From Polychytrium aggregatum (Eukaryota; Chytridiomycota; Chytridiomycetes; Polychytriales), in assembly GCF_025602895.1 (NCBI RefSeq), contig NW_026516446.1, positions 1 through 40,335 on the forward strand: a stretch of 40,335 nucleotides of DNA, written 5' to 3'. Below the pieces are notes generated by a model. The model worked only from the letters and a program-made list of their open reading frames with translations. It made no database searches and was not told the DNA's origin. Numbering within the stretch: the stretch's first letter is position 1; each line of letters starts with the position of its first letter. Shown one piece after another: positions 1 to 23,644 of the stretch. The position numbers and the translations under genes are program-made.

Positions 1-12
1 GACCATAAGAGC
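1..12 (-). other. 5' end of a probable second tRNA-Val gene, cut by the window edge
   Basis: The minus strand here reads GCTCTTATGGTC, identical to the first 12 bases of the complete tRNA-Val(CAC) gene at 8899-8970. Only the acceptor strand and the start of the D arm are visible; the rest would lie outside the window. It may be a full gene or only the end of the duplicated block. Confidence 0.5.
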
Positions 13-223
13 TTGTCCGGAAATCGCAATTTCCATATATGACCCCTGGATAATCGCCACAGAATATTGCCTCTTGCTCCCAAATTCGTGTGGGTCGTTG
101 CGTCTGGCGACCCCTACCTCCACCCGCCGCCTGTTGGCTCAGCCGTTCGGCCAGCCAACTATGGCGTAATGAGCATGTCTCCTGCTGTCTATTTTGTCCT
201 GTCCTGTAACCTATCCATAGGTC
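1..223. repeat. Left copy of a 223-bp inverted repeat
   Basis: This stretch is the reverse complement of 8688-8910. By eye there is one mismatch (position 215 against 8696). The first 12 bases are the complement of the first 12 bases of the tRNA-Val gene at 8899, so the repeat very likely continues left of the window into a second tRNA-Val gene on the minus strand. The retrotransposon 3' end abuts the inner edge at about 224. An open frame crosses both copies, but it has no ATG at its start and resembles no known protein. Confidence 0.9.
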
Positions 224-443
224 GGTCAATGGGTGGGTCTTTATTAAGACTTTGCCTTAGCGTCCCTGGCGGGCTCTGGCACTGGGTGTGGGCTTTGCCA
301 ACCAGGACATTTTACAATCGTCACTGCGGCGATGTCAAGTTTCGCCGAACTCATCTATTCAGTGACAGTTTGGAATCTGCAGCTCCGACTTCCATGTCCA
401 GACTTGTGCTGATGTATGCCTGTGGCATTACTTCCTCAGGCTC

Positions 444-3400
444 CTACTGTCGTGCGTGGCGTATCCGAGGGATTGGCGTCCACGACAGACATTCAGTTGC
501 GATGTCATCCAACACCGCCACGACATCCAGCCAGATCGCTGGTCTGTTGTTGAGGATTCGTTCGCGTTTGGCTCGCCATTTGCTCAGTTTTTCCTGGTCG
601 ATGGTGGCTGGTCTTGCGGGCACTCGAGCCAGTTTGGGGAGTGCGTCGATTGCAAGGTCGATGTACGTGATGCCTTCGGGGATCCTCGCAGGGTGTACAT
701 ACTGCTCGAGACGGTTCTTGGCTCGGACACATTCCGACGCATGTTTCCTGTTCACGGGAACTTTGGGACCATTGGGTCCGGGCTTCCTGCACGCTCCATC
801 AGGTTTGGGAGGGAAGCCTCCGACCCGCCAGAGAAACATTCTTCGGGCTTGAGCGACTGATATCACTGGCATCCGTGCGGTCAGGATAGGGTCTCCATCC
901 CATTTGTAGGTGCCTGCGATCGACATCACCTTGCTTGGGTTTCTTTCCTTTTCGTAGAAGCGCATAATCATTGCCTTCTTGATGGGAACGCCTGTTCCTG
1001 TCCCCTTCTCGAATAGGGCCGGTCTTGAATGCTCTGGGAAGGTTCTGTGCTGCTGTTCCAGCTCTTTCCAGGTGGCGTTTCCGGTCAGCTTGGAGAGGAT
1101 CCTTTTGTTTGTATCCCTTGCTGGGAGCTCCGCAATGTGTCTGAGCACCTGCGACGTGAGGAAGCCTGGGTCGCCTCTGCGATCGTACCAGCGGCCGAAG
1201 CACTTGATCGTCAGTACTTGTTTCCGAGTTGACATAGAGTATATCCCCGTGACCGCCTGTATCGCCGGCCCGGATATGTTGTGGCGGATGTTGAGGGCGG
1301 ATCGAAGTGTCTCCATCATGCATCGTTGCAGATCGTTCATCGTGGGTCCGCTCAGATTGATGATGGCAAGGCCGTATTCCAGACGCGGTCGGACAAAGGT
1401 CTTGTATATCTTGACTATCAGTCCGGGGTAGATGGATTTGCTGAATATCCCGTGCTTTCTGAGCTCCTTGGTTTGAAGCTGGGCCTTGTGTTTGAGCTTG
1501 CTTGCATGGGCTTCCACGTCAATGCCTTCGGGGCCGAATTGCACCCCAAGATATTTGAAGGTGGAGCGGACAAACTCGAGCGGTGTGTTGTTGAGGATGA
1601 CAGGTGCCGGGTTGGCCTCTGCCGTTGTGACTTCGCATTTGGCTGGCGCGAACATGTAATGATGCTCCGCCGCATGCGCTTCGGATATCCTGATGAGGCT
1701 CTGCAGGTCTGCGTGATCTTTTGCAATCAACGCCATATCATCGGCGTACATGACGTTGTTGATGATAAGATCTCCTATTCGTGGCGAGGCGATCGCCCGG
1801 AGACGTTGTGAGAGGTCGTCCATGAAGAGGCTGTAAAGGGTGGGAGAGAGGACCGATCCTTGCAGCAGCCCCGTCTCAAGCCAGTATGGCTTGGAGCTGG
1901 TGCCGCTCACCAGGACGGTGGTGCTCACGTCGTCAAAGAGAGCACGGAGGATGCGGACCGTGTGCGCGGGAACGTTCCGGTTCTCGAGCTTGGGCCAGAG
2001 CAGCTGACGATCGACCGAGTCGTAAGCGGCCTTGATGTCCATAAAGGCAATCCACGGAGTGTGTCCGTCGTTCATCATCATTTTAACAATGGTGTCGAGT
2101 GCAAAGACCTGGTCCAGGGTCCCTCTGTTGTTGCGGAAGCCTCCTTGGGAGATGTCGATGGCGCCCATCTCCTGCTGCAGTCGGCTGTGAATGATTCGTT
2201 CAAAGACCTTTCGGACGACCTGCAGAAGCGATATTGGCCTGTAGGTCTTGATGTCGGCTTCTTCGCCCTTCTTCTTCCAGATCGGGTGGTTGGTGGCGAC
2301 ATTCCACTCTCGAGGAACGACGCCGGTCCATAGGCACCAGCTGAAAAGCTGACACAGCCATTCGGAGACGTGATCTGTGACCGGGTGCAGGAGCACGGCG
2401 CTGATCCCGTCCGAGCCGGGTGCCTTGCGCTTGCCCGTGTGCTTTATGGCAGACCGTACTTCATTTGCGGTGATTTCGTGGGCACTGGTTCGGCTGAGCA
2501 ACACCTCTCGTGGTAACGGGGTGTTGTTTTTCTCTTGGACACCGTGGCGACTGGAGACATTACCAAAGTGCGTTCGGTATCGCTCCATGCTCTCCTGATC
2601 GTTTGGGAGGATCGACTGGTTGAAATAGCCACTCCTGATCTTGTTCCTCTTGCTGATTTCTTTGAGCAGATCGGTGTCTGATTTGGTCGAGAGGGACTGC
2701 GCCCAGGAGTTGTAAAAGTCTTGCTTTTGTATCCGGATCCGTTGTTTCAGGACGCTATTCCAGTGCCTGTAGTCGGCCATGGCCCGCAGCTGCAGCCTTG
2801 AGCCTTGCGGCAGCTGGTTGATCAGTCGATATGCCGCGTTCCGTCTTCTCTTGGCATCCGCCATTTCCGGGGTCCAGAAGCCGTTTTGTGGGACCGGGCC
2901 GTTTTTCTTGCGCTTGCCAATCACGATGCTGGCAACCGTTGTGATGTGGTTTTGGATGATATTCCACCCTGACTCGACGAGGGCCACGGCTGCTTCGTAC
3001 GCCATTGGTCCATCTTCTTGCGGCAGCCGGTTTCCCAGCCGAGTGATCTGTTCGACGACTGTCGGGTGGTGTTCTTGTATGGCCTCCGTGTACTGCTCGA
3101 GCACTTCCGGGTCCTCGAGCTTTTTTGTCCGCCACACGAGGATTGGTGGCCGTTTGGGCTGCTTCGCAACATCCCACTCGAGCTCCATTGCAACCACACG
3201 GTGGTCGGAGTTGCACGTATCGTTGAAGTGGACCAATGCCGACTTGATCTGGTTGATAAGGGCCGTGGACGCAAAGAACAAGTCGAGGACCGAGTTTTGC
3301 GTGTTTCGTCCCCTTGCGACGTGGGTCCAGTGTTGGCCATAGGGATTGGATGAGTCGACAAACTTCAAATGGCCTTCGTTGATGGCGCTCAAGAGTGGTC

Positions 3401-3935
3401 TGAGTCGGCCGTTGTATATTTCTGTATCCCTGGTCATTCTTCCCATGCGGGTGTTAAAGTCGCCCATGATCACCGAAGGGATGGGAGCGTCCGTCTTGGT
3501 GGTGTTGTTTTTGATCACCGAGACTGCTTCTCTGAACTTTCGCAGTTCAGTGGCGTCGGCCGAGAGTGCAGGTCTGAGGTAGAAGGAGCCAAAGACGATG
3601 CCTCGGAACTTGAACCAGATGCTCGTGTGATGAGGTCCAACGCGGAAGTTGCTAAAGTCTTCGAGGTTGGTGGTTTTCGGGTTCCGAATGAGGGCGATTC
3701 CTCCGGTGCCTCTTGCGAGGCCGTCGACAGAGACATATGGCTCTCGGGTTTCGAAAACTATGAGGTTCTTGTAAGGTCCGATGGATTGCTGTGGTTTGAG
3801 CCACGTTTCCTGCACCGTTATAAAGTCGAGGTCTTTTGCTTTTACCATTTCGATAACCTCGTGTATAGAGGTTTCAAGTCCGCAGACATTCAGGGTCGCG
3901 AACCTAACAGTGGGCGTAGGTTGGGGCTGCATCAT
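444..3935 (-). CDS. LINE ORF2: APE-type endonuclease and reverse transcriptase
   Basis: A 1163-residue polyprotein. The N-terminal 250 residues form an exonuclease-endonuclease-phosphatase domain with the motifs LNVCG, QETWL, GDFNTR and SDHRV, which supply the metal-binding and catalytic residues that nick target DNA. The reverse transcriptase follows, with YRPISLL, QGGFRNNRGT, the FMDIKAAYDSVD block (first catalytic Asp), LLQGSVLSP, and the YADD catalytic box near residue 730. The C-terminus has a C...H-x3-C cluster (CRK ... KHASEC) like the zinc knuckle of many LINE ORF2 proteins. No RNase H domain was recognised. The start ATG overlaps the ORF1 stop as ATGA, so translation is probably coupled by reinitiation. 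The frame is open throughout and the protein could be active. Confidence 0.93.
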   Translation of the reverse strand: MMQPQPTPTVRFATLNVCGLETSIHEVIEMVKAKDLDFITVQETWLKPQQSIGPYKNLIVFETREPYVSVDGLARGTGGIALIRNPKTTNLEDFSNFRVGPHHTSIWFKFRGIVFGSFYLRPALSADATELRKFREAVSVIKNNTTKTDAPIPSVIMGDFNTRMGRMTRDTEIYNGRLRPLLSAINEGHLKFVDSSNPYGQHWTHVARGRNTQNSVLDLFFASTALINQIKSALVHFNDTCNSDHRVVAMELEWDVAKQPKRPPILVWRTKKLEDPEVLEQYTEAIQEHHPTVVEQITRLGNRLPQEDGPMAYEAAVALVESGWNIIQNHITTVASIVIGKRKKNGPVPQNGFWTPEMADAKRRRNAAYRLINQLPQGSRLQLRAMADYRHWNSVLKQRIRIQKQDFYNSWAQSLSTKSDTDLLKEISKRNKIRSGYFNQSILPNDQESMERYRTHFGNVSSRHGVQEKNNTPLPREVLLSRTSAHEITANEVRSAIKHTGKRKAPGSDGISAVLLHPVTDHVSEWLCQLFSWCLWTGVVPREWNVATNHPIWKKKGEEADIKTYRPISLLQVVRKVFERIIHSRLQQEMGAIDISQGGFRNNRGTLDQVFALDTIVKMMMNDGHTPWIAFMDIKAAYDSVDRQLLWPKLENRNVPAHTVRILRALFDDVSTTVLVSGTSSKPYWLETGLLQGSVLSPTLYSLFMDDLSQRLRAIASPRIGDLIINNVMYADDMALIAKDHADLQSLIRISEAHAAEHHYMFAPAKCEVTTAEANPAPVILNNTPLEFVRSTFKYLGVQFGPEGIDVEAHASKLKHKAQLQTKELRKHGIFSKSIYPGLIVKIYKTFVRPRLEYGLAIINLSGPTMNDLQRCMMETLRSALNIRHNISGPAIQAVTGIYSMSTRKQVLTIKCFGRWYDRRGDPGFLTSQVLRHIAELPARDTNKRILSKLTGNATWKELEQQHRTFPEHSRPALFEKGTGTGVPIKKAMIMRFYEKERNPSKVMSIAGTYKWDGDPILTARMPVISVAQARRMFLWRVGGFPPKPDGACRKPGPNGPKVPVNRKHASECVRAKNRLEQYVHPARIPEGITYIDLAIDALPKLARVPARPATIDQEKLSKWRAKRERILNNRPAIWLDVVAVLDDIATECLSWTPIPRIRHARQ

Positions 3936-5269
3936 TTGCGGGGAGGAGTGGTTCCTTCGCGTCCGCCTTTTTCTTGGCGGCCTGGTTTGTTGCGAGCCAG
4001 TTCCTTCGCCTTAGCAGTGATCTGCTCGGCGACGGCTGGGTCGTTCATCTTCCGTTGGTACAAGGTCGCCGTGAGGAGGTCATTGGATTCCGCACATATC
4101 CTGGCAGCGCGTTCAATGAAGCTCTTGATTTGGAGCTTCTTGGACTCCTTCTCGGCCTCGGTGATCTTCGACACGTCCATGTGTGCGACTTCAGTGAATT
4201 TCATGTCCGTAATGTGCTTCAGGAATTCATCCCTCAAGCTCTTGTCCCTGAGAACGAACTCACAGACGCTGTTGTTCACAAAGCTGATATTCAGGATCTG
4301 GTTGGTGGCGAATCCCTTCTCCTTGAAAGCTTGTCTGATAGTGCGGTAGCTACCCCGAGGGATACCCTTGACGTAAACCCAAGCGGCGTTGTCCATCCTA
4401 TCCTTTAAGGGTCCTTCCTCGACAGGGACCGAGGATCTGATCATCCTGAATGGCGTGGCAGTCTTGGGCACCAGCCACTTGCCGTCGGTGGGGTCACGGC
4501 CGCGGAGGATGGCGCCGATGGCCTCGTTCTTCTTGCCGGCATCGGCCTCCTGGTGGACTTTTTCGAGCGCCGCCAGCTTGCGCGCGTCGATTGTCTTGTT
4601 GTCTGGCTGCTTCTTGGCACCCCGCTGGGCGGCTGCTGCGTAGGATGTCGGAGCTGGGCGTTCCGAGATGGCCCGGGACGCATGCTCCAGCTCGGAGGCG
4701 AGCGTCTGCATGCACTCGGTGGCGCTCTGGGTCAGGGCCTTGATTCTAGCAGCTTCCTCGGGCTTGCTGAGGTCCAGCTTGGCGAGTTCTTCGTTAATCT
4801 TCTGAGCTTTCTTGAGAAGCTCACTCTGGATGTGCTGAAGCTGCTGTTGGGGACTCTGCTTCTTGCGCATGTCGGTGGCGCAGACGCGCTTCCCGACAGC
4901 CCTGGCATCGGCGAGGGAGGCCCGTTGTTCGAAAAGCTTCCATCCGGCTTCGTCATGGCGGGTCATCAGGCCCCAGAATACGAGGATGGAAAAATGCTTC
5001 CCGCATTCTTCCACCTTGGTGGCGGCGTCCGGGCTCATCAGCATGTTCTTGCAGACGACCGAGTGCTGGGCGTCGTCGATACGCCAGGCGGGGGGTTTGC
5101 TCCCTCTGCAACGGGAGCATTGAACTTGGTCTGCCTTCAGAGCGAAGACAAACCTAAAGCGGCGGTAGGTGATGTCTTTGAAATCGACCGGGATGAAGTC
5201 CTGGTCGCTGAGAGTGTTGTTCTTGGCCTTCTCGATTCTCGAGAGGGCCCACATCTTTTCCTCAACCAC
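3932..5269 (-). CDS. LINE ORF1: zinc-finger, coiled-coil RNA-binding protein (5' end missing)
   Basis: About 445 residues are visible, beginning at a GTG (5267-5269). The frame stays open further upstream to about 5290, so the true start is absent. The N-terminal part has a cysteine/histidine cluster (CSRCRG ... QHSVVCKN ... CGKHF) that could bind zinc. A Gln/Leu/Lys/Glu-rich stretch with coiled-coil character follows (about residues 135-195). The C-terminal half has a region (AAWVYVKGIP ... CEFVLRD) that resembles the RNA-binding fold of LINE ORF1 proteins, then a basic tail. ORF1 proteins coat element RNA and aid integration; that role is inferred from position and layout because the sequence itself is poorly conserved. 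It overlaps ORF2 by 4 nt. Confidence 0.75.
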   Translation of the reverse strand: MVEEKMWALSRIEKAKNNTLSDQDFIPVDFKDITYRRFRFVFALKADQVQCSRCRGSKPPAWRIDDAQHSVVCKNMLMSPDAATKVEECGKHFSILVFWGLMTRHDEAGWKLFEQRASLADARAVGKRVCATDMRKKQSPQQQLQHIQSELLKKAQKINEELAKLDLSKPEEAARIKALTQSATECMQTLASELEHASRAISERPAPTSYAAAAQRGAKKQPDNKTIDARKLAALEKVHQEADAGKKNEAIGAILRGRDPTDGKWLVPKTATPFRMIRSSVPVEEGPLKDRMDNAAWVYVKGIPRGSYRTIRQAFKEKGFATNQILNISFVNNSVCEFVLRDKSLRDEFLKHITDMKFTEVAHMDVSKITEAEKESKKLQIKSFIERAARICAESNDLLTATLYQRKMNDPAVAEQITAKAKELARNKPGRQEKGGREGTTPPRK

Positions 5270-5275
5270 GTCGGG

Positions 5276-5505
5276 CGGAGAAGCACTGGGCCCTCTCGAT
5301 CCTCAAGAAGGCCAAGAGCAACACTCTCAACGACCAGGACTTCATCCCGGTCGATTTCAAAGACATTACATACCGTAGATTCAGGTTTGTCTTCGCCCTC
5401 AAGGCAGACCAAGTTCAATGCTCCCGTTGCAGAGGGAGCAAACCCCTCGCCTGGCGTATCGACGACGCCCAGCACTCGGTCGTCTGCAAGAACATGCTGA
5501 TGAGC
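5276..5505 (+). pseudogene. Inverted fragment of a second LINE copy (ORF1 5' part)
   Basis: Read on the plus strand, this encodes the same zinc-finger segment as the start of the minus-strand ORF1 (NTLNDQDFIPVDFKDITYRR onward, then CSRCRG and KNMLMS), with a few substitutions such as SNTLND in place of NNTLSD. The two copies meet head-to-head at about 5273 with almost no spacer. Homology stops after KNMLMS at about 5505, 113 bp before the Sel1 gene start. The divergence argues for two separate insertions rather than one twin-primed inversion. Confidence 0.85.
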
Positions 5506-8687: not shown

Positions 8688-8910
8688 GACCTATCGATAG
8701 GTTACAGGACAGGACAAAATAGACAGCAGGAGACATGCTCATTACGCCATAGTTGGCTGGCCGAACGGCTGAGCCAACAGGCGGCGGGTGGAGGTAGGGG
8801 TCGCCAGACGCAACGACCCACACGAATTTGGGAGCAAGAGGCAATATTCTGTGGCGATTATCCAGGGGTCATATATGGAAATTGCGATTTCCGGACAAGC
8901 TCTTATGGTC
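8688..8910. repeat. Right copy of the 223-bp inverted repeat
   Basis: Reverse complement of 1-223. It covers the 5' flank of the tRNA-Val gene and its first 12 bases (8899-8910), so the repeated unit is tRNA-Val plus upstream DNA. It may be a segmental duplication carrying a tRNA gene, the arms of a larger palindrome, or a fold-back assembly join at the sequence end. Confidence 0.9.
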
Positions 8911-8970
8911 TAGTGGTATGACGTGTCCTTCACACGGATAAGGTCCCCAGTTCGATCCTGGGTGGGAGCA
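8899..8970 (+). tRNA. tRNA-Val(CAC)
   Basis: A complete cloverleaf: 7-bp acceptor (GCTCTTA with TGGGAGC, including two G-T pairs), D arm GTC/GAC, anticodon stem TGTCC/GGATA with loop TTCACAC (anticodon CAC), 5-base variable loop, T arm CCCAG-TTCGATC-CTGGG, discriminator A. No intron. The B-box GTTCGATCC is intact. Confidence 0.95.
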
Positions 8971-8985
8971 AAGATAATCTTTAAC

Positions 8986-9067
8986 GACAGCTTAGCCAAG
9001 TGGTTACGGCGTTGGACTTGAAATCCAATGGGCTTTGCCCGCGCAGGTTCGAACCCTGCAGTTGTCG
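8986..9067 (+). tRNA. tRNA-Ser(TGA)
   Basis: A class II tRNA with a 7-bp acceptor (GACAGCT/AGTTGTC), anticodon stem TTGGA/TCCAA around loop CTTGAAA (anticodon TGA), a long variable arm (TGGGCTTTGCCCG), T arm with GGTTCGAACCC, and discriminator G, all typical of serine tRNA. It starts 15 bp after tRNA-Val and has no intron. Confidence 0.96.
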
Positions 9068-9081
9068 CAACGACGATCACA

Positions 9082-14735: not shown

Positions 14736-15027
14736 GATACGACGACCCACTCCCAGGAGAGACTTTCGTCTTCCTACATCCTTGCGCTTCTCAACATTTG
14801 CATCCTCCCACTCCGGCCGCCGAATATCAGCCAGTCGACTGCTGACAACGTCACTTCGAGCACAGACATCTGATAGCGGCAGCAAATCGACCAATCAAAG
14901 CCCTCCCAAAAGTTCATTGGGCACCTGCAGCATCATGGCTGTGTCAATAGGATGGCCAATCAATCCCTTTGTACACCAGACGGGTGTTTATTGTGGGTGG
15001 TGGATGTGTGTCCGCCCCAGTTCATTA
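14736..15027. other. Spacer between the Fanzor relic and the mariner-type element
   Basis: No gene recognised. It ends in TA (15026-15027), the presumed target-site duplication of the adjoining transposon. Confidence 0.4.
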
Positions 15028-15054
15028 CAGGCAATCCAATAAAAACGGGACACC
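15028..15054 (+). repeat. Left terminal inverted repeat
   Basis: CAGGCAATCC followed by AATAAAAACG and GGACACC. Its inner 14 bases (AAAAACGGGACACC) match the right end exactly, and the outer CA also matches. TA precedes it. Confidence 0.82.
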
Positions 15055-15110
15055 CGGGTTTTTGACCATTGATCGAATATTTTGTTACCCAATGTTATCG
15101 CGCGCTGGCC

Positions 15111-16045
15111 ATGACCATTCGCCACACATCCGACTTTCGCACCGCCGCATTGCGATGCTACGCCCTCATCCATAGCCTGCGTAAGGTCGCCTCCATATTC
15201 AGTGTATCCAAGAGCACCATCCATCGATGGCACCGAGGATGCAAGCTGGATGACCCATCCCGGGTCCCAGCTCGCAGATCCACTTTCTTCGAGCAGGCAT
15301 GTCCAGTCATTCGCACCCTGATTGAACAGGACCCGTTCCAGACTGGTCCTGTGTTGCGATGCAAGCTCGAGTCCATCCTCCAGAGGAAAGTATCACTCTC
15401 ACTCTGCCACACTGCCATCCACCGAGCAGGTCTCTCACACAAGAGGAGCCACACACCTCTACAAGTCCAAGCGACTGGATGAGCGAGTGGCACAGTTCAG
15501 GGACCAGGTCCGCTCCATCGACCCACGACGATTCGTCTTTGTCGATGAGACAGGGATCAGGAGATCCATTTTCCCTCTCTACGGATACTCACCGAAGGGT
15601 GCTCCGCTTCGCCAGCGCAATCACATGAAGCACAAGTCCGTCTCGGCTGCATTTGCCATCAACCACTCTGGTGTGCTGCATCGCATGTACATCCCCACAT
15701 CATTCAAGACACACTCGATGGTCGAGTTCTTTGAGCGAGCGAGCTTCCCAGACGACTCTGTGATTGTGATGGACAATGTCAGCATGCACAAGACACGGGC
15801 TGTCCTGGACTGCATCGAGCGCCGAGGATGGTCAGTGATCTTCACCCCACCTGCTTCACCCGACTTCAATCCCATCGAGAACTTCTTTGGGATTGTGAAG
15901 CATCCAGTACAGGAAGGCAGCAGCGCTGAATGCGTCCGAGGGATTCAGGGTCGGGATGGTGACCCTGTTCGAGTCCGTCGTGCGGAGGGTGCTTCCAGAT
16001 GTCTTCCCACGGCTGATTGAGCGAGCGATGCGCTTCTGGGGTTGA
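15111..16045 (+). pseudogene. Tc1-type DD34E transposase with two frameshifts
   Basis: Frame one (ATG at 15111) gives the N-terminal helix-turn-helix half: SLRKVASIFSVSKSTIHRWH, a DNA-binding domain for the terminal repeats. It fails in a CA run (15449-15457), where a lost CA explains the shift. The next frame carries the DDE catalytic domain: Asp in VFVDETG (codon 15544), Asp in VIVMDNVSMHK (15772) and Glu in NPIENFFG (15877). The second Asp and the Glu are separated by 34 residues. An extra G near 15912 moves the C-terminus (ALNASEGF ... RLIERAMRFWG, stop 16043-16045) into the third frame. All catalytic residues are present, so this is either recent decay or sequencing error. Confidence 0.88.
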
Positions 16046-16162
16046 GTTCCCTCCAATCAAGCCGCCGTTCTCACGTTCACATCCCTGGCTTGAACCTCTC
16101 GGCGATTTTTGAACAGGGTCACTTCCCCAACCAGCCCGCAAAGACGGGCTCCTGCTCTCGGG

Positions 16163-16169
16163 TATAAAT
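16163..16169 (+). promoter_or_regulatory. TATA box of the Fanzor gene
   Basis: TATAAAT lies 127 bp upstream of the Fanzor ATG, in the 250-bp gap after the transposase. It suggests the nuclease has its own RNA polymerase II promoter inside the transposon. Confidence 0.6.
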
Positions 16170-16295
16170 GCCACACCTTCGTCCTGCTGCTTTCTTCCCT
16201 CATCTCGCCTTGATCTGATCATCGCGCTATTGTACGATAAAAAAGTCTCTGCTCTGACCAGTACCACTGGCAGGCACCCAGCACCCTCTGCCCCC

Positions 16296-18668
16296 ATGCC
16301 TCCGAAGCGTAAGGGTACCGGTGATGGCCAGCCTCGGCCACCCAGGCCCAAGAAAGCCAAGTCACAGTCGGAGCCTGTCTCTGGTTCGTATTCTGACCCC
16401 ACGCATGCTTGGTCGTCTGTTGCTCCGTCGCTCACCACCACTGCTTCTGCAGATCCAATGGATGTCGATCCCACCGAGCCTGGTCCATCTACTTCCTCGA
16501 GTACCGGCAAGCGATGTCGCCAGTGCGATGGCACCGATCACGAACGTTGCAACACTAGCAAATGTCCCAAATACCGGCCCCTCAAGAGTTCTGTCGTCCC
16601 ACTCGTGGATGGAAGGTCATCCGCCCCTCAGTTCAGCTGCTTCAAGCAGACGATGGATGGCTGTTGTCTCAATCCCGCTCTCCGCGACAAGATCCAGGCC
16701 ACCGTCGAGGCCATGACCCAGATCCAGTTCGAGGCATCCAGGCTGCTCAACCTGCACATCCTCCGGTGCATCGAGCAGGATATTCCCGTCCCCGTCATCT
16801 CCAGGGCCACCCCTGCTTTCATCCGCCAATGCTTCACGATTGTCGAGGCCGATGCCCTCTCGACGGCCAGGGACACCAAGAAATACAACGAGCATCTGGT
16901 CGCTTCCTTTCGCGACTATCAGACCACTCGGCACGCAGACCTGCCTCCGGCCCCTCGTCTGCCTGATGGTGCTCACAGTCAGCTTCTCACACTGGCTGTC
17001 AATGCCTATGCCACCAACTGCACCACCCACCTCGATCTGGCCTACTGGCGACTCCTTCGCCGCTTCTGCGCTGCCGTCTTCCCAGCCAACAAGCACAAGC
17101 ACGAAGCCATCGAGGCTTGTCTTGAGCTCTTAGAGAAACCAGGGCAGACTCCACCCAAGGCCGATCTCGAGTTCCTCTATCCCGAGTTTGGTCACGTCCT
17201 GGACGAGTTTCGGTACAGCAACGACCAGGACCGCTTCCGGGCCCTCCATCGCCTCTCACACCATGTGAGAATCCTCGCCCGGGACAAGATGGTCGACAAT
17301 GTCCACAAGTGGATCGACTGTGACATGCCCGCCCTCCGAGTCACCGAGCTGCAGCGCCAGGCCAAGCTGGACGAGCTCACTACCCAAGGCATTCCCTCCG
17401 ACGACAAGAGGTTCACCACGGCCAAGTCTGAGCTCGGCACCACCAAGTCCAAGATCAACAAGCTGGCCGCCAGACTCAAGTGGGCTCTCAAGCAGCTCGC
17501 TCTTGACACTCCTCCGGCCGTGTGCACGATGGTTCCTCTATGCACTGCCACGGCCAAGTATGTCAAGATTGACACGGTCACTCTCTGGGAACTCCTGGGT
17601 CCAAAGAAGCGCCTTGGACTCACCAGGGACATGCTCAAGGAAGAAGGTGAGGACGGTGTCAACAACCAGGATCGTCTCCGGCGCAGTTGCTTCAAGCTGC
17701 GTAGTTCCCTCTTCCAAGAGCGGGTCAGGGACAAGAAGCTGTTCAACTACGAGATCAGCACCGATGGCATTGGATGCACCATCGGTCTCGTCAAGTTTCT
17801 GCCTCGAACCGATCACACCGAGACTTCCGAGCCTCCTCCGACTGCCGAGCAGCGCATCCAGGAGCACATCGGCAGCCCAGACCCCGATCGCACCACTTGG
17901 ATTGGCATCGATCCTGGAGTCGGCTCCATCTTCACGGCGGTCATCCAAGCACCGGGCCACCAAGACGAGGTGGTCTCATTCTCCAATGGCCACTATCAGC
18001 ACATGTGTGGCCATACGTCCAACACAAGGTGGCACAACACCATGAAGTATCGACTCAGCATCGAGACCTGGATGTCGTCCACCCCCTCGCCCAAGGTGTC
18101 GTCCTCGGAGGCCTTCAAGGTTCATCTCACCCATGTCCTGCGACCGGAGCTGCGAGTGCAGCTCGACTTCCACCTTGGCAAGAAGGCCCGTCACCATCGA
18201 TTCACGGGCCACAAGAGACGCCAAGTGGCCGTCGACAGGATGTACAAGGCCGTCCTGAAGCACGCCCCGATACGGACCGATGTGGTGATCGCCTTTGGCA
18301 ATGCATCATGGCGACAGGGCAAGGGCTATGCATCCAGCCCTCGGAGGCAGCGGTTCGCTCGGTACTTTGAGCAGTTCGAGCACCACCGACGCCGTCCCAA
18401 TCACCATCATGGAAGCGTCAAGGTAGTCTCGACGAATGAGTTCAACACCTCGCAATTGTGCTCCAAGTGCCTGGAGCCAGTTCGGTTGGAAGGACTCGAT
18501 GCGCCCAGTGTTGCGAATTCCCACTTTGTCAGGAGCTGCAAGAATCCCAGCTGCCGGACAGTGTGGAATCGCGACGTCAATGCGGCGCGCAACATGATCA
18601 CAGTATGCAGGTCGATTGTGGAGATCGGAGAGCGACCGGCGGTCTTCACTCGGAGGCTGCCAAAGTGA
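16296..18668 (+). CDS. Fanzor: TnpB/Cas12-related RNA-guided DNA endonuclease
   Basis: Intronless gene for 790 residues, starting at the first ATG of a frame open from further upstream. The N-terminus is basic and resembles a nuclear localisation signal (MPPKRKG ... RPKKAKS), followed by a cysteine/histidine knuckle (CRQCDGTDHERCNTSKCP, about residues 72-89). The middle is helical and unrecognised by eye, as expected for the REC and wedge regions. The C-terminal third is RuvC-like: D539 in IGIDPGVGS (RuvC-I), a position near A666 in VVIAFGNASW where TnpB has Glu but Fanzors do not, an alternative glutamate E715 in STNEFNTSQLC, and D760 in WNRDVNAARNM (RuvC-III). A zinc finger uses C722, C725, C748 and C753. 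Characterised Fanzors cut DNA guided by an omega RNA encoded at the 3' end of their own gene. All expected catalytic residues are present, so this copy may be active. It lies in the same orientation as the transposase. Confidence 0.95.
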   Translation: MPPKRKGTGDGQPRPPRPKKAKSQSEPVSGSYSDPTHAWSSVAPSLTTTASADPMDVDPTEPGPSTSSSTGKRCRQCDGTDHERCNTSKCPKYRPLKSSVVPLVDGRSSAPQFSCFKQTMDGCCLNPALRDKIQATVEAMTQIQFEASRLLNLHILRCIEQDIPVPVISRATPAFIRQCFTIVEADALSTARDTKKYNEHLVASFRDYQTTRHADLPPAPRLPDGAHSQLLTLAVNAYATNCTTHLDLAYWRLLRRFCAAVFPANKHKHEAIEACLELLEKPGQTPPKADLEFLYPEFGHVLDEFRYSNDQDRFRALHRLSHHVRILARDKMVDNVHKWIDCDMPALRVTELQRQAKLDELTTQGIPSDDKRFTTAKSELGTTKSKINKLAARLKWALKQLALDTPPAVCTMVPLCTATAKYVKIDTVTLWELLGPKKRLGLTRDMLKEEGEDGVNNQDRLRRSCFKLRSSLFQERVRDKKLFNYEISTDGIGCTIGLVKFLPRTDHTETSEPPPTAEQRIQEHIGSPDPDRTTWIGIDPGVGSIFTAVIQAPGHQDEVVSFSNGHYQHMCGHTSNTRWHNTMKYRLSIETWMSSTPSPKVSSSEAFKVHLTHVLRPELRVQLDFHLGKKARHHRFTGHKRRQVAVDRMYKAVLKHAPIRTDVVIAFGNASWRQGKGYASSPRRQRFARYFEQFEHHRRRPNHHHGSVKVVSTNEFNTSQLCSKCLEPVRLEGLDAPSVANSHFVRSCKNPSCRTVWNRDVNAARNMITVCRSIVEIGERPAVFTRRLPK

Positions 18669-18765
18669 TCTGATCTATTTATTGTGGCTTTGCTTGACGC
18701 ATGCCATCACATACTACATGTTCATGGAAACGGCTGTGGTGTCCCGTTTTTTTCTGAATATAGTG
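18669..18765 (+). ncRNA. Candidate omega (guide-scaffold) RNA region, extending into the Fanzor 3' end
   Basis: In characterised TnpB and Fanzor loci the omega RNA covers the 3' end of the nuclease gene and the transposon right end, with the guide taken from the flanking DNA. The equivalent region here is the last part of the ORF plus these 97 bp, up to the right terminal repeat. The prediction rests on position only; no strong hairpin was identified by eye. Confidence 0.35.
18738..18765 (-). repeat. Right terminal inverted repeat
   Basis: On the minus strand it reads CACTATATTCAG, seven A, then CGGGACACC. It matches the left repeat in the outer CA and the inner AAAAACGGGACACC. TA follows at 18766-18767. 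Confidence 0.82.
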
Positions 18766-18810
18766 TAAAAGGGCCATAACAACACAATATGCCGCCTCAT
18801 TTGCGATCGA

Positions 18811-23119: not shown

Positions 23120-23644
23120 ATTGGCTCTTGGTTTCCGGAGGACCTCAGGGTTGCCGCGATGGGATCTGCCTGCTCGGTAGGCACGACGCTCCAGCAGCCA
23201 AGAGTAGACTGCGAGTTGGTAAGAGAGGGAGAGGCCTCCGGGGGCTGGGAACGGCTTGTCTTTTTGGCCGTCCCGCGGGGATCTGGGGCGACGCGCGATC
23301 AGAGGCAAGCTCAGACAGTTTCCATTTCGGGGTCAAATTGATCGGCCATGGCGCAGGTCCGGGAAGCCAAGCGACTTGACAAGACCGAGCATATCGATAT
23401 CGATATCGATATACCATGGAACTGCCCAGAGGGTCGAGTGGATGCACCACACTCCCACATCGAGTGGATGCACCAATCGATCACGGGAGATCGACCAAGT
23501 GTATTCAAGACCATGCTCCCCAAACCAACGAAATCAAAGAGATTGCCAACCAGGACGGGAAACAATCGCATGAGGCCTACGGATCAGCAGGCTTGTGCCG
23601 CCGATGCCAGAAAGTGACTGTTCCGCTTCTGGAGTGACAGTAGT
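23120..23644. other. Intergenic, kinesin-8 promoter side and DTD 3' side
   Basis: The region contains a short ATATCG tandem repeat (23392-23412) and two near-identical gagtggatgcacca segments (near 23436 and 23462). It should hold the kinesin-8 promoter. No TATA box was convincing and no gene was seen. Confidence 0.45.

Follow-up and report, generated by a model that had tools for sequence, protein, structure and literature searches.

Within a 40,335-nucleotide window of the Polychytrium aggregatum genome (NCBI RefSeq assembly GCF_025602895.1, contig NW_026516446.1, positions 1 to 40,335), a Tc1/mariner element carries a transposase gene and, downstream of it, a gene encoding a Fanzor protein (Table 1). 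A preliminary description, made from the sequence alone, had placed the element at exactly these coordinates. The TA-flanked terminal inverted repeats (TIRs) it reported were confirmed, with TA on both sides and repeats of 25-26 nt. Both TIRs are imperfect, and a repeat search identified a perfect 14-nt core common to them (15041-15054 and 18738-18751), outside which the left and right ends of the element differ from each other. To describe the flanks, 80 insertions were collected and 12 with duplicated flanks were removed, leaving 68 independent insertions, most of which were collected via a left-end pattern that itself contains TA; TA was located at the left of all 68 and at the right of 57 of 59. 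The TA duplication, the inverted repeats at both ends and a DDE transposase with DD34E spacing assign the element to Tc1/mariner at the family level. It is well supported by these sequence features that the region is a mariner-type transposon bearing an intact Fanzor.

Table 1. Features of the Fanzor-carrying element and its flanks, in window positions (TSD, target site duplication; ORF, open reading frame)
Feature	Position	Strand	Remarks
Tc1/mariner element	15028-18765		3,738 bp
Predicted target-adjacent motif (A/T)TTA, here ATTA	15024-15027	+	role as target-adjacent motif predicted
Left TSD, TA	15026-15027		
Left TIR, CAGGCAATCCAATAAAAACGGGACA	15028-15052	+	25 nt in this copy; 26 nt in most of those retrieved
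DD34E mariner-type transposase gene, broken here	15111-16045	+	310 aa in intact relatives
TATA box TATAAAT, upstream of Fanzor ORF	16163-16169	+	identical in 30/30 copies
Fanzor ORF, 790 aa, intact	16296-18668	+	
RuvC D539 codon, DPG motif (D539-P540-G541)	17910-17912	+	invariant in 30/30 copies
Rearranged catalytic glutamate E715 (Ealt)	18438-18440	+	invariant in 30/30 copies; six residues ahead of C722
C4 zinc finger C722/C725/C748/C753	18459-18554	+	C722-x2-C725...C748-x4-C753
RuvC D760 codon (R759-D760)	18573-18575	+	invariant in 30/30 copies
Candidate right-end RNA (reRNA/omega-RNA) scaffold	18600-18767	+	putative; overlaps ORF end; hairpin 18638-18661 predicted
Right TIR, reverse-complemented, CACTATATTCAGAAAAAAACGGGACA	18740-18765	-	26 nt
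Right TSD, TA	18766-18767	.	TA in 57/59 independent right ends
Predicted guide region in right flank	18768-18787	+	by analogy with SpuFz1 (PMC10432273); length assumed

The DD34E transposase of the preliminary description was recovered as a motif, but not as a working gene in the window copy. The frame appears in the ORF listing as two pieces, 15111-15482 and 15625-16020, because of two one-base insertions relative to intact relatives. The DDE_3 profile matched the second piece with 63.1 bits and an intact 310-aa relative with 85.2 bits, and the spacing of 34 residues from the second D to the E was counted by eye. Since its transposase is broken, autonomy of the window copy was ruled out.

The complete 790-residue Fanzor was borne out by the intact ORF, by a match to the Pfam TNB domain (PF07282, 38.1 bits on the 790-aa ORF against a cut-off of 26.3) and by the pattern D-X(125,275)-[TS][TS]XX-C4 finger-X(5,50)-RD, which is given as the Fanzor motif in PMC3627910 and is represented here by D539, T718-S719, the C4 finger and R759-D760. 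A failure of the C-terminal third to match TnpB/Fanzor profiles, named beforehand as the outcome that would speak against a Fanzor, did not occur, as the TNB match shows. The RuvC acidic residues and zinc finger that were said to be kept are present in the window copy (D539, E715, D760 and the four cysteines), and so is the TATA box of its own. E715 corresponds to Ealt, defined as a glutamate six residues ahead of the zinc finger (PMC10711439), and the zinc-finger spacing is longer than in the search pattern of that paper. Among 30 near-full copies, C722 is replaced by R in two, and C725, C748 and C753 are invariant in all 30. The protein is most likely of the Fanzor1 type, a call made only from its size and mariner setting. 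In three copies (L010, L026 and L028) the ORF reaches 833 aa via an upstream in-frame ATG.

The family to which the window element belongs is a large one of the Tc1/mariner type and encodes both a DD34E transposase of its own and a Fanzor. At up to 3 mismatches, the 64.7-Mb assembly contains 396 matches to the left end and 276 to the right end, far beyond chance, and the reversed pattern of either end gave 0. Further copies with the same terminal repeats, whose absence would have argued against the element, are thus abundant. The 30 near-full copies (L009-L038) came from one DNA search in which the best 38 of 1,254 candidates were scored, and their mean pairwise identity is 96.3% (3.7% difference). 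The Fanzor is intact in 25 of them, with stop codons in five and frameshifts in none. Seventeen have an open transposase frame (310 aa in 16 and 326 aa in L018), and indels are present in 12 of the 13 with a broken one; both frames are open in 13 copies. These counts are biased toward intactness and not fully independent, because the copies are the best-scoring ones and some represent two contigs of one site. The pooled ratio of nonsynonymous to synonymous substitution (dN/dS) across the 30 copies is 0.21 for the transposase and 0.30 for the Fanzor, so that both genes look to be under constraint at the sequence level.

Shorter members of the family were found as well. In the seven derivatives of 279-381 bp that were examined (L039-L045), what is left of the element is 97-207 bp at the left end and 166-214 bp at the right. 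A class of 1,110 bp has one common deletion at four sites. Cores of related inverted repeats (AAACGGGACA or near variants) lie in the right flanks of L016, L040, L056, L067 and L101, which looks as though these elements often insert beside related mariner ends.

Comparisons of the flanks showed a sequence preference on one side only. Of the 68 independent insertions, 66 have a T directly ahead of the left TA, and in 54 the position one further out is occupied by A or T. At the right end, an A follows TA in 9 of 58 independent insertions, near background, the A content of the flanks being 21.5%. Genome-wide exact ends, counted with duplicated contigs included, gave T before TA at 172 of 178 left ends and A after TA at 40 of 210 right ends. 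The motif is therefore confined to the left flank, as would be looked for in a TnpB-like homing or retention system. T also precedes the left TA in all nine independent short derivatives (279-1,110 bp) that have no Fanzor gene and keep at least 166 bp of the right end. Mariner/Tc1 elements integrate at symmetrical TA, with a reported bias toward palindromic AT-rich sequence (PMC5481204). A symmetric TA-targeting transposase predicts a mirror-image preference, whereas a target-adjacent motif (TAM) of the Fanzor in the left flank predicts a one-sided T, and from this difference we predict (A/T)TTA as the Fanzor TAM. The arrangement resembles that of SpuFz1, whose measured TAM is CATA and whose left end is preceded by a conserved CA, in loci with the Fanzor as well as in gene-less 'ghost' loci (PMC10432273).

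The right end may encode the guide RNA. The retention of 166-214 bp of the right end in all seven derivatives of 279-381 bp is the basis for the candidate scaffold in Table 1. Fourfold-site diversity in the last 158 nt of the ORF is low (0.035), which we did not use as proof because it is lower still at the ORF start. There, at about 16296-16453 (positions 1268-1425 of element L012), diversity is very low, at 0.0064 compared with 0.035-0.137 in the other blocks.

These observations lead us to propose, with a probability of roughly 0.55 for the model as a whole, a mariner element with a Fanzor, a right-end RNA guide and retention by recutting at (A/T)TTA. The transposase would cut and paste the element at TA. 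The Fanzor would bind the right-end RNA, whose 3' part would extend into the right flank and serve as the guide, and after excision it would recut the empty site, recognised as (A/T)TTA beside the guide-matching right flank. Repair from the chromosome still carrying the element would then restore the insertion. Copies landing next to (A/T)TTA would be retained, and derivatives without both genes but with the right end could be maintained in trans. Consistent with the model, none of 58 joined-flank queries (24 and 34, with the best 40 of 665 and the best 40 of 198 candidates scored, respectively) revealed an empty site, and a spanning match to an empty site should have outranked half-sites among the candidates listed. 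The recent mobility suggested in the preliminary description is in line with the data only in part, as the copies are 3.7% apart on average, the window transposase is broken and the empty site was absent from all 58 queries.

Several points weigh against the model. The absence of empty alleles may simply reflect that no transposition has occurred since the haplotypes separated, and because none were found, the target origin of the left T is not proven. The nine derivatives that have no Fanzor gene show the motif just as strictly, as would be expected from action in trans but also from a preference of the transposase. The right-end fold barely beats shuffled sequences (z of -1.3 to -1.7), and the right end is too conserved for covariation, so a conserved RNA structure there gave no strong signal. 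A protein search identified no outside relative at E<=1e-3. Among solved structures, the best hit by sequence was the zinc-finger (TNB) end of LaTranC, which is not significant (E of 0.5). The sequence establishes the layout of the element, its copy number, the constraint on both genes, the one-sidedness of the motif and the persistence of right ends; an RNA guide, nuclease activity, the identity of the motif as the TAM and the role in retention are inferred.

The main rival to the TAM reading of the motif is an asymmetric strand-transfer complex of the transposase, in which the differing TIRs would produce the one-sided TTA and the Fanzor would be a passenger with another role. The differences between the two ends outside their shared core, and the motif in all nine derivatives without the Fanzor gene, fit this explanation. 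We nevertheless consider it unlikely, since Mariner/Tc1 integrates at symmetrical TA (PMC5481204), the corresponding base on the right shows no departure from background (A at 40 of 210 ends against 21.5% in the flanks) and SpuFz1 has the same left-side arrangement, where the motif is the measured TAM. It is considerably less probable that the extra T, with the A or T ahead of it, is carried by the element rather than selected in the target. Such a T would explain the near-invariance (66 of 68), and the empty sites that could contradict it were not found in the 58 queries. However, TA duplicates cleanly outside the TIRs, so a carried T would sit beyond the duplication; T is missing from six exact left ends, of which at least two belong to a single site that is present on two contigs (L019/L022); and the position further out shows a bias only (54 of 68). 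Least credible of all is a Fanzor that is a decaying relic without function: five of 30 copies have stop codons and two lack one zinc-finger cysteine, but a dN/dS of 0.30, no frameshift in 30 copies and invariant catalytic residues argue otherwise.

A mariner element with a Fanzor is a kind already known, and the family described here is a new member of it. The words 'active' and 'undescribed' in the preliminary description go beyond the data. A Fanzor1 and a mariner transposase in one element were described in 2013 (Bao and Jurka, PMC3627910). PGv-1, which encodes a transposase, a GIY-YIG endonuclease and a Fanzor, and PUl-1 resemble the window family, as judged by their description, in combining a Fanzor1 with a mariner transposase between TA-flanked inverted repeats (PMC3627910). 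PGv-1 and its three relatives are called single-copy in that paper, whereas the window family has hundreds of ends and both frames open in 13 of 30 copies. Spu-1/SpuFz1 of Spizellomyces punctatus shares with the window family the TA-flanked repeats, the intact Fanzor and the conserved bases upstream of the left end (PMC10432273, PMC3627910), and its gene-less 'ghost' copies, which keep the right end, resemble the short derivatives found here (PMC10432273). The two differ in the motif (CATA in SpuFz1, (A/T)TTA here), in protein size (633 aa against 790 aa) and in the transposase, which the window family has and which, according to PMC10432273, was not found between the Spu-1 repeats. With TnpB-like homing or retention systems, as summarised in PMC10432273, the window family shares a proposed role, the recutting of the empty site followed by repair that restores the element; those systems use single-strand transposition by TnpA, whereas the window family would use DDE cut-and-paste at TA. 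The biological role of Fanzor nucleases was stated to be unknown in the same activity paper of 2023. Features in and around the copies give hints of what a Fanzor may do for its transposon. The retention or homing idea can be tested directly in this family, which offers copies with both the transposase and the Fanzor frame open, derivatives that have lost the genes, hundreds of insertion sites and a sharp motif prediction, (A/T)TTA.

Many insertion sites are present on two contigs with nearly identical adjacent flanks, and these paired contigs are probably haplotypes. Ten pairs were compared with up to 450 bp of flank on each side; their flanks differ at 15 of 8,997 positions (0.17%) and their elements at 845 of 34,259 (2.47%). 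The divergence between elements at the same site is thus little under the 3.7% between random copies, and one of the ten pairs is almost identical, with 1 difference in 3,738. When six pairs were compared over 1,400 bp, flank similarity was lost from about 400-550 bp outwards in two (L011/L024 on the right and L013/L029 on the left), for a stretch or to the end of the compared sequence. About 550-950 bp out in the right flanks of L011 and L024, unrelated sequence, GT-repeat-rich on one side, lies amid matching flanks and adjoins the right end of a related element.

Both flanks match in 17 pairs, the ten above and seven compared over 82-140 bp per side with 0 or 1 mismatch. Lengths differ by at least 18 bp in eight of the 17, for example 3,735 and 1,110 bp (L037/L119) or about 3,614 and 307 bp (L071/L125). 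A simple deletion in situ was ruled out as the origin of the 1,110-bp allele, because its exact breakpoints are common to three copies elsewhere; in addition, its left 663 bp differ from the same-site partner at 21 positions and its right 446 bp at 1. In a comparison of 24 copies, shared variants lose their linkage over short distances, and within about 25 bp it is down to background. A non-partner copy at no more than 1 mismatch was found for 30 of 917 copy-windows of 300 bp, compared with 4 of 924 in one linkage-breaking shuffle (a count that leaves out L119, and in whose shuffle partners were not excluded), and in nine of these 30 another copy fits while the same-site partner differs at six or more positions. 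In five pairs, same-site partners tend toward more agreement near the element ends. A control with a Fanzor2/IS607-type element on contigs C124 and C379 showed agreement almost throughout: L002 and L006 differ at 9 positions in their first 3.0 kb, and L003 and L007 at up to 7 positions per 200 bp away from the ends. The lack of a sign of swapping in this low-copy control says little, because its copies hardly differ from one another in any case.

Three processes could account for the same-site differences: gene conversion, re-insertion driven by the Fanzor, and mosaicism of the assembly. If the assembly mixed reads of near-identical copies, mosaics would result, and the loss of linkage within about 25 bp is what such mixing would leave. 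A different repeat of the window (1-5378) likewise shows clustered differences to contig C364 (49 mismatches in 5.4 kb, compared with a divergence of about 0.1% in unique sequence), and the assembler may keep contig pairs apart only because they differ, the comparison being one of assembled contigs rather than reads. On the other hand, base quality looks good, as there is no N in the window or the loci examined and no frameshift in the 30 Fanzor ORFs; pairs differ by entire deletion classes (for example 3,735 and 1,110 bp, with the breakpoints of the three 1,110-bp copies elsewhere), and one of the ten pairs is nearly identical. We regard mosaicism as a serious candidate that nevertheless falls somewhat short of an even chance, and hold ordinary ectopic gene conversion, acting between the hundreds of similar copies and with no connection to the Fanzor, to be equally plausible. 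The excess of near-matching non-partner windows (30 of 917 against 4 of 924, with nine in which the partner is at least six positions off) and the mosaic appearance of the repeat at 1-5378 point to conversion, whose rate would have to outrun mutation many-fold (2.47% in the element against 0.17% in the flanks); nothing found against it is decisive.

A further reading, possible but less probable, is that the same-site pairs with different copies are a record in the genome of Fanzor-driven homing in a eukaryote. In such homing, the Fanzor would cut the empty (A/T)TTA site after excision, and repair would start in the flanks with the occupied homologue as template and, once within the element, switch to any of hundreds of copies, deletion derivatives included, so that sites would stay filled while their contents are reshuffled. 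Repeated excision, recutting and repair from the homologue and then from another copy would explain together the filled sites, the reshuffled contents and the better-conserved ends. If true, same-site swapping would be a population-genomic signature of the retention or homing role of Fanzors, and the element family would recombine like a sexual population. The literature searched, with most subscription papers outside its scope, contained no report of same-site swapping for Fanzor elements.

Other Fanzor genes occur in the genome. The Fanzor2/IS607-type protein of L003 (476 aa) shares with the window Fanzor the DPG motif, a glutamate immediately ahead of the zinc finger and the TNB domain, with 27% identity in alignment. 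It differs in its OrfB_IS605 match and IS607-like N-terminus, and a mariner setting like that of the window Fanzor was not demonstrated for it. The 476-aa ORF scored 35.3 bits for OrfB_IS605 and 66.5 bits for TNB, with a MerR match below the cut-off. Its N-terminus combines a MerR-like helix-turn-helix with a serine-recombinase-like CYARVSS motif, which we take to be IS607 TnpA-like, and is followed in the same frame by a Fanzor2/TnpB half. Copies of this ORF (L002, L003, L006 and L007) lie at G000:C124:404004-412288 and C379:91328-99612, two on each contig, facing in opposite directions about 5.1 kb apart. Elsewhere, an open 310-aa transposase of the window's family was found near a Fanzor2-type TNB match (L004, G000:C157:640544-643738). 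A search of the whole assembly (G000) for TNB (PF07282) gave 663 candidates, of which the best 150 were scored; all were above the cut-off and fell into several distinct score classes. Several Fanzor families probably coexist in this genome, judging from these sequences.

Outside the element, the repeat at 1-5378, which we read as LTR-like (resembling a long terminal repeat element), is inverted relative to contig C364. Tandem tRNA-Val (cac) and tRNA-Ser (tga) genes are located at 8899-8970 and 8986-9068, and a short dispersed repeat at 23359-23630 has dozens of matches across the assembly, mostly at 71-87% identity.

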